From IMG/VR virus record IMGVR_UViG_3300036985_003956, positions 1 to 41,230 of that record: a stretch of DNA of 41,230 nucleotides, one strand, 5' to 3'. The notes under the pieces are model-generated. The model was not told the DNA's origin and did not search any database. It saw only the letters and a list, made by a program, of their open reading frames with translations. The DNA comes from a virus. Shown here in pieces: positions 1-41,230 of this stretch (positions are counted from its first letter, which is position 1; every line of letters begins with the position of its first letter). Both the position numbers and the translations under genes were made by a program.

Positions 1-176
1 CGTGTTGGAGGCGGCTGAGTAATCGCCCGTGTTGGAGGCGGCTGACCGATCGCCCGTGTTGGAGGCGGCTGAGTAATAGCCCGTGTTGGAGGCGGCTGAG
101 TAATAGCCCGTGTTGGAGGCGGCTGACCGATAGCCCGTGTTGGAGGCGGCTGAGTAATTGCCCGTGTTAGAGGCGA
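1..176 (-). repeat. 27-bp tandem repeat, left block (9-residue coding repeat)
   Basis: About six and a half copies of a 27-bp unit coding S-A-A-S-N-T-G-x-x on the minus strand. Seven of nine codons are identical even at silent sites. Variation is almost confined to two adjacent codons: (T/G/A)AT, giving Y/D/N, followed by TAC, CGG or CAG, giving Y/R/Q. Confidence 0.95.
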
Positions 177-549
177 AACTTTTTTCTTCTGTTCTATTGG
201 CTTTTTTACTTTTAGTTTTTTTAACATTCCTAAAAATAAAATTAACTCCTGCGTCAATAAGACTATGCAAATTTATTTCTGCGCCGATATTTATTTCTGT
301 ACAAGAAAACTTGTTATCTTCATCGTGGTTTACTATTTTTCCGCTTCCCTCCACTTCGCTAAATTTACTATCTGAAGGGGAATAATAACTAAATAAATCA
401 AGGGGATTCTCGCAAAAATGAAACCCTTTTTGGCAGATAATAGCGTCGTCAGTTTTGTATGATTTTCCTGTTTCATATTGGAATCCCCGACACGTCATAT
501 CTTTGTTGTAGGCTTTATATCCTTTTACGGTTTTCTGTTTTGACATCAT
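1..549 (-). CDS. DUF7666-type repeat protein, N-terminal part (continues at the right end of the window)
   Basis: Starts at ATG 549 (or 546) after AGGAGG and runs off the left edge in frame. The first ~125 residues form the globular head seen in phage DUF7666 proteins (KGYKAYNKDMTCRGFQYE, then KGFHFCENPLDL). Then come 9-residue repeats of the form SAASNTGxx. The matching C-terminal part is at 40714-41230, so one gene spans the window edge. The family is common in phages and has no known molecular role. The start overlaps the stop of the upstream membrane microprotein (ATGA). Family assignment is from recognised motifs. Confidence 0.85.
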   Translation of the reverse strand, partial: MMSKQKTVKGYKAYNKDMTCRGFQYETGKSYKTDDAIICQKGFHFCENPLDLFSYYSPSDSKFSEVEGSGKIVNHDEDNKFSCTEINIGAEINLHSLIDAGVNFIFRNVKKTKSKKANRTEEKSFASNTGNYSAASNTGYRSAASNTGYYSAASNTGYYSAASNTGDRSAASNTGDYSAASNT

Positions 550-16595: not shown

Positions 16596-18095
16596 ATGCG
16601 CGATTTAATTGAACCAGATGACGATATAATTATATATAGTTTATATTCCAGAGATGTGAAATGGGGTTTAAAAACTCCTTACGCAACGGCTGGAAACAGG
16701 ATGATTTTAGTTTCCCCTAATTTTTTATCTCTTGAAAATAGCGGAGTTGTTAATGTTTTGAAATTACCGTTAGAGATAGATGTTTCTAACGCAATAAACT
16801 GGGACACAATAACTCCGACGGATTACACAGCTGCATCTGCTCGCGCAGGAAAAGATTTTTATATTTACGCATTAAAATCTTCACATGGTGCTGCCCCTAG
16901 ATTTATTCTTTCCGCAGCCTCAACTTATCCCAGTGGATACACCGCGCTCAATAGCCGCAAGATCGGTGGGTTTCACTGTTTGTGTGTGAGTGTGGGCACG
17001 ATCGCAAGCCATGATTTGACCGATTTTGTGGCGGGTGATGTTTTGCCGGCATCGATCTGGGATTTGAATCATAAACCAAAAGTGGCGAATCCGGAGGGGA
17101 TGGTTTACTCACTGAAGGCGAATATCTGGGTAGGGATATATCTGCCATCCGGAACCGGCGCGTCAACCGCTTCCGTCAACGGCGGGACAATTTCGGATTC
17201 GCGCGATTGGATGGATTTTACCGATGATGGCGCCGCGGTGAATAAGCGTATGCTGCGGGACCGGGAATTCCAAGTTATCGCCGCAGGGTGTAATGAAGGC
17301 ACCAATATTGCTGGAGACTCTGACCCGGTGACAACCGGCGGCCATGTGGACACAGCCGGCAGGCGCATGATCTCTAATATCGGATGCGAGGATTGCGCGG
17401 GCGTCATGCATCAGTGGCTAGATGAGCAAAGTTTCCGTTGTGACCCTGACGGATCAGTTACTGCGGCAGGATTAACGTCTACGATTACCCATGATGACAC
17501 ACCCGGGGGGAACCCTGTATACCTGAGGCAGGCGTCAAGCGGACTGTATTATCTGGCCTCCAATATGGCCGCAGCCGCGGTTGATAAATACATCGGCCCG
17601 GCAAACTATAAGATCCCGGTTAAGCATGAGGCGGGGGCCGCCACAGGCGCAATCGGCCAGGTGTATTTTGACGATGACGCGGCAAACGCGTACGAGAAAT
17701 TACTCTGCAATATCTCGACGATCGCTAAGAATATATTCATCCCGACGAATAACCCGACGTATTTCCTGGAAATTAAACATGACGCAAGCGCGGCCACTAA
17801 CGGCACAGCGGTTAATTTTGACGATGGCGCGGATAACCGCCTGGAATCAAATAATGCCGGCGGCGCAAACGCTACGTTTGATATTTCGCTAAATAGCCAG
17901 ACATTAGCGGATTATACACTCCCCGGGTCTAAGGGAAAACTTTATAGACAAGGGACGTATGGAGACGTAAAGCTAATTGGCGGCCGTGCTTGGTTTGCTG
18001 GCTCGTCTTGCGGCTCCCGCGGGCGTCTTGCGAATACCTGGCGCTGGAATACGAATTCGATTCTCGGCTGCCAGTTCTGCGCGGAAAGTATATAA
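16596..18095 (+). CDS. receptor-binding tail fibre with DGR-type variable C-terminal lectin domain
   Basis: 499 aa. Residues ~1-110 are an AT-rich, probably particle-anchoring part. From about residue 115 (KIGGFHCLCVSVGT..., NHKPKVANPEGM, RDWMDFTDDGAAVNKRML, SNIGCEDCAGVMHQWL) it matches the C-type-lectin-fold targets of diversity-generating retroelements. The end, VKLIGGRAWFAGSSCGSRGR then W-NTNS-LGCQFCAES, is the typical variable region: fixed GG, CGSR, RW and G-x-x-F-A-E-like residues with variable residues between. Base composition becomes GC-rich from about 16940, suggesting domain transfer. No DGR reverse transcriptase or template is in the window. Confidence 0.8.
   Translation: MRDLIEPDDDIIIYSLYSRDVKWGLKTPYATAGNRMILVSPNFLSLENSGVVNVLKLPLEIDVSNAINWDTITPTDYTAASARAGKDFYIYALKSSHGAAPRFILSAASTYPSGYTALNSRKIGGFHCLCVSVGTIASHDLTDFVAGDVLPASIWDLNHKPKVANPEGMVYSLKANIWVGIYLPSGTGASTASVNGGTISDSRDWMDFTDDGAAVNKRMLRDREFQVIAAGCNEGTNIAGDSDPVTTGGHVDTAGRRMISNIGCEDCAGVMHQWLDEQSFRCDPDGSVTAAGLTSTITHDDTPGGNPVYLRQASSGLYYLASNMAAAAVDKYIGPANYKIPVKHEAGAATGAIGQVYFDDDAANAYEKLLCNISTIAKNIFIPTNNPTYFLEIKHDASAATNGTAVNFDDGADNRLESNNAGGANATFDISLNSQTLADYTLPGSKGKLYRQGTYGDVKLIGGRAWFAGSSCGSRGRLANTWRWNTNSILGCQFCAESI
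17978..18092 (+). other. DGR-type variable region
   Basis: Last ~38 codons of the fibre gene. Several variable-looking sites carry GCT, TTT, TCG, TCT, TGC, CTT, ACC, TGG, ATT or CTC where related proteins differ, between conserved CGSRGR and W-NTNS motifs. No second copy (template repeat) was found by eye on either strand. Confidence 0.6.
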
Positions 18096-18116
18096 TAGTC
18101 TTTGTGTGTACCTGAC

Positions 18117-18369
18117 ATGGGAAAATCGCTCTACGGACAAGGTACGACGAAAATAAAATAATCGTTGAAGGAGAGAGGGCAAGGATTGTTCTTTGCGACA
18201 ATGATGGTAAATCGTTAAAGCAACAGGCAAGTGGGCGGCAGCGGTAAGAGCAATGAATAAGAGGCACTGGGTAGGTCTTTACGATACGAAGGCAGAAGCA
18301 GCATTCGCTTACGACAAGGTGGCAAACAAGCTTCATGGGGAGTTTGCTGTTCTTAATAAGGATATCTAA
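18117..18369 (+). pseudogene. decayed HNH-AP2 homing endonuclease remnant
   Basis: Fragments in different frames. First, from ATG 18117, a short start, then RYDENKIIVEGERARIVLCD, the usual N-terminal domain of HNH-AP2 enzymes. After a deletion that removes the HNH core, an AP2 DNA-binding domain (GKWAAAVRAMNKRHWVGLYD, then AEAAFAYDKVANKLHGEFA) ends at TAA 18367-18369. At least one frameshift separates the parts. It lies 22 bases after the fibre gene's stop. Confidence 0.75.
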
Positions 18370-18383
18370 TTACAGGAGGTCTT

Positions 18384-18746
18384 ATGAGAGGGTTTCCGAC
18401 GTATTTTAATACTAAGCAGGATGTGTTAAATGTTATCGCGGTGTATCCGGTGGAGACGAAGGCTTTTTTGAAGCGGTGCCTTGATGAGCGGTTTAGCTGG
18501 CTGCCTTCAAAAACCAAAAAGCAGGAGTTTTTGGTCGCGGGGAAGAAGGCAAGTTTTAGCTCTGCCCAAAAGATGGCTAAGGGTGAAAAATCTGTTATTG
18601 ATGCTACGCACCGGGTGGTGGAGATTAAGGATGAGGCTACGAAGGAAGTTACCGAGCGGTATCAGGAGGAGTATCGGGAAGATCCGAATTGTCAGTTGTT
18701 TCGGCTGGGGTTTACGGTGGATGAGGTGGAGAAGCTGTTGGATTAA
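18384..18746 (+). CDS. hypothetical protein of DGR-fibre neighbourhoods (120 aa)
   Basis: ACAGGAGGTCTT precedes the ATG. MRGFPTYFNTKQDVLNVI, then HRVVEIKD and FRLGFTVDEVEKLL at the C-terminus, is a phage protein that, from memory, follows variable fibre genes in other phages. Possibly a fibre chaperone or assembly factor; this is inference. Confidence 0.65.
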   Translation: MRGFPTYFNTKQDVLNVIAVYPVETKAFLKRCLDERFSWLPSKTKKQEFLVAGKKASFSSAQKMAKGEKSVIDATHRVVEIKDEATKEVTERYQEEYREDPNCQLFRLGFTVDEVEKLLD

Positions 18747-40355: not shown

Positions 40356-40714
40356 CCCACTTTCATTTTTCTTATTTTATATCCGGGATAGAAATTTTTA
40401 ATATCCTTTTCCGCTTCCTCTTTTGTGAATAATTCAATAGTGTCTCTTTCGGTAATTATGTTTCTAGCTACAAAAAAATACCCCAGCTTATTTACGATTG
40501 CGTATTCTTTTTTATTGCTCATATTAACTTCTCCTGTTTTAGGTAAATCCACCTCACATTCCCCACACAACCCCGACTGCGTAGGTTCATCAATCTTCGT
40601 CCGGCACTCGTTACACCGGTACACATCGGGTTTCTCTGGTGGCCCCAACAAACTACCTATTCCCCTGTAAAACTCCTCTGGTGATTGGCTGTAGTGTCCG
40701 TCTGATAGTGGCAT
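40349..40714 (-). CDS. zinc-ribbon protein, possibly two fused genes (121 aa)
   Basis: The N-terminal half has CNEC and CGEC knuckles (YRCNECRTKID; GLCGECEVDL). The C-terminal half (MSNKKEYAIVNKLGYFFVA..., EAEKDIKNFYPGYKIRKM) is a separate small domain, and AGGAGAAGTTAAT lies just before its Met at about 40522. It may be made as two products. Confidence 0.6.
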   Translation of the reverse strand: MPLSDGHYSQSPEEFYRGIGSLLGPPEKPDVYRCNECRTKIDEPTQSGLCGECEVDLPKTGEVNMSNKKEYAIVNKLGYFFVARNIITERDTIELFTKEEAEKDIKNFYPGYKIRKMKVGW

Positions 40715-41230
40715 TATTTAACCTCCACAAAATTTCCGTTCTTGAGTTTATACCAAACATCTTCTTTTATTTTTACCCCGTCAACCAAAACAGATTTAAC
40801 TTCTTTTATGACCCACTCATTATTTTCTTGTTTCCACTCAGCTAAAACTAACCAGCAGGTTTTTTTACCTTTGGCTTTGTTTTCTATGCCTAACCCACAA
40901 GCAATAGATTGTTTCCCTTCAACGGAGGCGGCTGAGTAATAGCCCGTGTTGGAGGCGGCTGACCGATCGCCCGTGTTGGAGGCGGCTGAGTAATTGCCCG
41001 TGTTGGAGGCGGATGAGTAATCGCCCGTGTTGGAGGCGGCTGACCGATTGCCCGTGTTGGAGGCGGCTGACCGATCGCCCGTGTTGGAGGCGGCTGACCG
41101 ATTGCCCGTGTTGGAGGCGGCTGACTGATTGCCCGTGTTGGAGGCGGCTGAGTAATCGCCCGTGTTGGAGGCGGCTGACTGATTGCCCGTGTTGGAGGCG
41201 GCTGAGTAATAGCCCGTGTTGGAGGCGGCT
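40714..41230 (-). CDS. DUF7666-type repeat protein, C-terminal part (continues from the left end of the window)
   Basis: Enters from the right edge in the 9-residue repeat frame, with eleven repeats. It leaves the repeats at VEGKQSIACGLGIENKAKG and ends in a small domain (CWLVLAEW, then VDGVKIKEDVWYKLKNG) typical of the C-terminus of DUF7666 proteins. The TAA stop overlaps the ATG of the next gene (TAATG). It is the continuation of the gene at 1-549. The repeat number across the junction is uncertain because assembly ended inside the repeats. Confidence 0.85.
   Translation of the reverse strand, partial: AASNTGYYSAASNTGNQSAASNTGDYSAASNTGNQSAASNTGNRSAASNTGDRSAASNTGNRSAASNTGDYSSASNTGNYSAASNTGDRSAASNTGYYSAASVEGKQSIACGLGIENKAKGKKTCWLVLAEWKQENNEWVIKEVKSVLVDGVKIKEDVWYKLKNGNFVEVK
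40924..41230 (-). repeat. 27-bp tandem repeat, right block
   Basis: Eleven copies of the same 27-bp unit as at the left edge. Read N to C the variable pairs are YY, NQ, DY, NQ, NR, DR, NR, DY, NY, DR, YY. One unit carries an extra change (SSAS instead of SAAS). The last 16 bases equal the first 16 of the window. Confidence 0.95.

Follow-up and report, generated by a model that had tools for sequence, protein, structure and literature searches.

An Mtd-Type Tail Receptor-Binding Protein That Probably Outlived Its Diversity-Generating Retroelement

Target Gene and Its Product

The DNA analyzed here (the window) is the complete 41,230-nt stretch of the IMG/VR virus record IMGVR_UViG_3300036985_003956. 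It carries a tail protein gene whose 3' end resembles the targets of diversity-generating retroelements (DGRs). The gene and its parts are the following:

16596–18095, plus strand: gene of an Mtd-like tail receptor-binding protein of 499 amino acids, probably a former DGR target (Pfam, PHROG, PDB and Foldseek matches).
16806–17063, plus strand: Mtd second domain, residues 71–156 (Pfam match to PF21916).
17445–17900, plus strand: beta-rich insert, about residues 284–435, with an internal duplication (alignment, predicted structure, DNA repeat at 17660/17810).
17979–18087, plus strand: variable region (VR) of the probable former DGR target (codon comparison with the template repeats, TRs, of relatives L001, L002, L014 and L003).

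The open reading frame matches the Pfam family Mtd_2nd (PF21916, E = 9.2e-19) and the tail protein family phrog_11262 (E = 4e-48), and a profile search recovers the Mtd structure 1yu4 from the PDB at E = 2e-22. The predicted structure has a mean pLDDT of 70, with low values in the VR part; submitted to Foldseek, it returns variants of BPP-1 Mtd as its top five matches, Mtd at E = 7e-12. Judged from sequence and structural model, the gene is a real open reading frame for an Mtd-type tail receptor-binding protein, with a predicted role in host-cell recognition. The beta-rich insert, which separates the VR from the Mtd domain, is modeled with a pLDDT of mostly 72–94. According to the alignment, it is missing from two relatives (L006 and L007) and found in others.

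Variable Region

The original prediction described the fixed skeleton of DGR targets in the last ~38 codons, and this skeleton is indeed shared with six relatives that possess a full DGR and whose loci run past the target. The closest template available for comparison is the TR of L001, the nearest relative. Compared with this TR, 12 of the 16 template-A codons (A as first or second base) are altered in the VR, against only 2 of the 21 other codons (Fisher p = 1.4e-4), a contrast which indicates that the resemblance of the skeleton is more than chance. The third base is unchanged in 10 of the 12 altered template-A codons, and the five further changes in the non-A codons are synonymous only. 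The differences from this TR outside A consist of synonymous changes, a TAC to TGG and a CGG to CAG; some of them are located near the 3' end of the VR.

This codon pattern is the mark that DGR retrohoming leaves; ordinary selection would hardly yield it. C-type lectin folds do occur outside DGRs, and the protein might in principle never have been a DGR target, its variation being due to ordinary positive selection. However, it is the template-A codons that carry the changes, mostly at an unaltered third base, and the nearest relatives of the window on the tree carry full DGRs, which makes this explanation highly improbable. A DGR-like VR is, by itself, no evidence of an active DGR. No hairpin was seen beside the VR end in the window, and many RT-carrying relatives are likewise without one by the same measure.

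Absence of the Retroelement and Completeness of the Record

A search of the whole record with the Pfam reverse transcriptase (RT) profile RVT_1 gave no match. For divergent RTs, a hidden Markov model was built from the RTs of the target's relatives; it produced only noise in the window (best E = 0.92). In an ungapped search of the window for a TR, even the best 90-nt stretch shows 20 or more non-A mismatches. A short-word blastn search of the window for a TR found nothing either, while the same search on L001 recovered its own TR at E = 2e-32. The accessory protein of L001 also has no match in the window. The earlier description of a DGR-type variable receptor-binding protein without RT or template is correct.

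The record is classified as linear in IMG/VR. Its ends show the following features:

1–549, minus strand: N-terminal part of a gene with 9-aa ASNTG-type repeats, running off the window (repeat and frame analysis).
40714–41229, minus strand: C-terminal part of the 9-aa ASNTG-type repeat gene (repeat and frame analysis).

Both ends are located inside one 27-nt tandem array belonging to a single minus-strand gene, whose reading frame would continue from one end into the other if the missing DNA amounted to 11 nt and a whole number of units. Because the two ends share this in-frame array, the record is probably a whole circular genome broken in the repeat; it is likely that the array broke the assembly. 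The window thus appears, from its sequence, to be an almost complete circular genome, which supports the original claim of a whole genome. Some DNA may be missing at the ends, though seemingly only repeat units.

Scar Downstream of the Target

The DNA that follows the target gene contains the following features:

18096–18383, plus strand: scar at the site of the relatives' TR, RT and accessory gene (synteny with L001; no remains of TR, RT or accessory gene recognized).
18143–18217, plus strand: putative HNH endonuclease N-terminus, read in a different frame (translation, recognized by eye only; no Pfam match).
18217–18366, plus strand: fragment of an AP2 domain from a disrupted endonuclease of the HNH-AP2 type (PF00847 and endonuclease matches).
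18384–18746, plus strand: gene X (58% identity to the post-cassette gene of L001).

The L001 locus runs from the target through TR, RT and accessory gene to gene X, whereas in the window the target is followed by a gap of 288 nt and then by gene X. Because gene X follows the cassette in L001 and only this gap in the window, the cassette is missing from a conserved position. In L002 and L014, too, TR, RT and a small accessory gene separate the target from gene X, so that gene X is retained beyond the cassette in all three. More generally, many relatives, whether or not they have an RT, carry gene X after either the target or the cassette. A single-sequence search with gene X and the next gene confirmed no close relatives.

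Stops are present in all frames of 18096–18383. The AP2 fragment matches PF00847 with E = 2.9e-6 and 27.9 bits, which is below the curated cut-off of 33.3. It is 54% identical to a Vibrio phage endonuclease and resembles phage HNH and homing endonucleases. No HNH catalytic motif was seen in the translations of the gap, and a search for the source of the AP2 remains found only distant matches. From the position of this remnant we infer that the endonuclease took part in the loss of the cassette.

VR and TR are near-identical repeats able to confuse assemblers, and the missing cassette could accordingly be an assembly artefact. However, instead of a VR-TR fusion the gap holds an unrelated sequence, the AP2 fragment, and is flanked by the conserved gene X. 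The cassette is also absent from many independent records, and the complete genome of a cultured phage, P12026, has an Mtd-like gene without RT. We regard an artefact as very unlikely.

Cassette Presence and Loss Among Relatives

A first search of IMG/VR identified six relatives, to which the GenBank phages added one, vir525. All relatives of the first search that run past the target have a TR, with 0–4 mismatches outside A, and an RT just downstream. A profile search found 498 relatives, and 80 loci from among them were retained. This sample is biased: the profile was derived mainly from members that carry an RT, the retained loci are those closest to it, and some of the records are fragments. 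Among the 59 loci of the tree that could be scored, 42 have an RT and 17, the window included, have none (~29%). RVT_1 had no match in the 22 RT-less or unresolved records that were searched whole.

On a quick tree, the RT label requires 12 parsimony changes, at least five of which are forced by well-supported branches. Such counts alone cannot separate gain from loss, and it is the leftover pieces of the cassette at RT-less loci that indicate loss. The scars differ from locus to locus. Only the accessory gene is left in L056 and L057; L039 has retained its end. TR and accessory pieces remain in L034 and L088, TR plus RT and accessory pieces in L087, and TR plus an RT piece in L030, while the RT piece of L041 is inverted. 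In L053, L055, L064 and L082, the target runs directly into gene X. The downstream DNA of L053 and L056 is 90% identical, yet their scars and VRs differ. The A-codon signature is present in the VRs of all RT-less loci. As far as the sequences of these loci tell, the cassette has been lost several times among the relatives of the window's target gene.

A separate observation concerns the 75-kb record IMGVR_UViG_3300029286_003689, which contains two Mtd-like targets (L043 and L048). RT and TR are located beside only one of them in the stretch examined, and the other target is cut at the record end.

DGR Activity in the Target Family

Three pairs of RT-carrying strains (L036/L038, L032/L033 and L071/L072) are 99.6–100% identical upstream of the VR, and their VRs differ at 14–18 sites corresponding to TR adenines and at 0–1 other sites. 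Differences restricted almost completely to TR adenines show that the DGR is active in this family of Mtd-type targets. In the two RT-less pairs, 0 and 1 of 85 VR sites differ. This near-identity is consistent with freezing, but the comparison is weak: several RT-carrying pairs are likewise identical in the VR, and each identical RT-less pair may represent a single strain.

Origin of the RT-Less Target

The explanation that we favor, with a probability of about 0.85, is that loss of the cassette by deletion or replacement left a frozen former DGR target. In the ancestor, a standard DGR would have been at work, its error-prone RT copying the TR and thereby rewriting the VR at its adenine codons. 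Deletion or replacement would then have removed TR, RT and accessory gene from the window's virus, and the 288 nt with the remains of a broken HNH-AP2-like endonuclease would have stayed in their place. The VR would be the variant frozen at the time of loss, and the target a frozen lectin; in this virus the VR is probably now fixed in one form. Later changes of the target would have come from ordinary mutation and from recombination swapping its distal part. The original prediction had offered three options: diversification in trans by a host or helper DGR, a lost retroelement, or ordinary selection. The lost retroelement is the best supported of them, with the 288-nt scar occupying the site of TR, RT and accessory gene in the nearest relatives, and selection alone fails to account for the excess of changes at template-A codons.

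As for the option of diversification in trans, the target would be non-autonomous and varied by an RT and a TR that either the host or a co-infecting relative supplies. Relatives with complete and active DGRs are common, the VR skeleton is intact, and remote targets within one genome are known (PMC7517822, PMC4891356). No positive sign of such a partner was obtained, however: a TR pattern compatible with the VR had no match in the 2.9 million viral contigs of IMG/VR or in 84,980 GTDB genomes, with the restriction that the patterns fix many synonymous sites and would miss a more diverged template. Furthermore, the VR differs from the nearest TR outside A, in part near the 3' end, and the differing scars of the RT-less loci are as expected of loss. 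Diversification in trans is thus an unlikely explanation for the window. Its broader form, in which RT-less Mtd viruses make up a lasting class of non-autonomous targets varied by TR and RT of co-infecting relatives, like helper-dependent non-autonomous transposons, seems improbable to us.

Another feature bears on where the cassette was lost:

16965–16980, plus strand: recombination break relative to L005 (near-identical upstream, likeness at the protein level only downstream).

L005, a record of the same species, is near-identical to the window up to about 16970, and the base composition of the window shifts at this break. The distal part of the target gene has, by this comparison, been exchanged by recombination, a predicted DGR-free way of altering receptor binding. 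This sharp break and the change in composition raise the possibility that the distal half was acquired already free of a cassette, the loss having occurred in the donor virus. The L005 record, however, stops within the target gene and gives no view of its cassette site. We hold a loss in the donor to be possible, though only tentatively; it shifts the place of the loss and is a variant of cassette loss rather than its opposite.

Comparison with Known Systems

Mtd-like genes are also found in Bartonella genomes (L110, L112, L114–L117, L119, L120, L122–L124, L127 and L128), several per genome in some, and one genome has four identical VR ends. No RT was seen near these loci, and RVT_1 had no match in the five whole genomes searched. 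These genes may represent an Mtd family that is fixed and free of RT in this bacterial genus.

The closest known counterpart of the window's protein is Mtd, the DGR target of Bordetella phage BPP-1. The two share the Mtd second domain, a C-terminal VR with a fixed skeleton and a role as tail protein, and the best structure matches are to Mtd; the identity is 26% over the aligned part. In contrast to BPP-1, the window is without TR, RT and accessory gene, and its protein has a beta-rich insert of ~150 residues before the VR. The DGRs of Caudoviricetes sp. vir525 (a Methanosarcinales virus, BK063673), L001, L002 and L014 have a target of the same family as the window, and the last three share the neighboring gene X with it. 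Unlike the window, all four carry TR, RT and accessory gene between the target and the next gene. An Mtd-like protein has also been noted in the archaeal virus ANMV-1 (PMC5006420). Marinomonas phage P12026 (JQ867100), a complete genome of a cultured phage, is similar to the window in having an Mtd-domain tail protein and no RT, although the two proteins are distant (31% identity).

For Treponema denticola, targets left over after DGR loss have been described (PMC4891356), and for cyanobacteria they have been suggested (PMC7517822). As in the window, the VR-bearing target is kept there while RT and TR are gone. These cases concern bacterial genomes, whereas here the target is the receptor-binding protein of a virus, and the losses recur in a single family. 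No paper naming DGR loss in phages was found with the phrases tried. The most interesting side of this locus is that loss has recurred in a single viral family. It provides a natural comparison, within one family of receptor-binding proteins, of viruses retaining a machine for targeted hypermutation with others that lose it. This allows asking when hypermutation stops paying, for example, once a good variant has been attained or the host receptor no longer changes.
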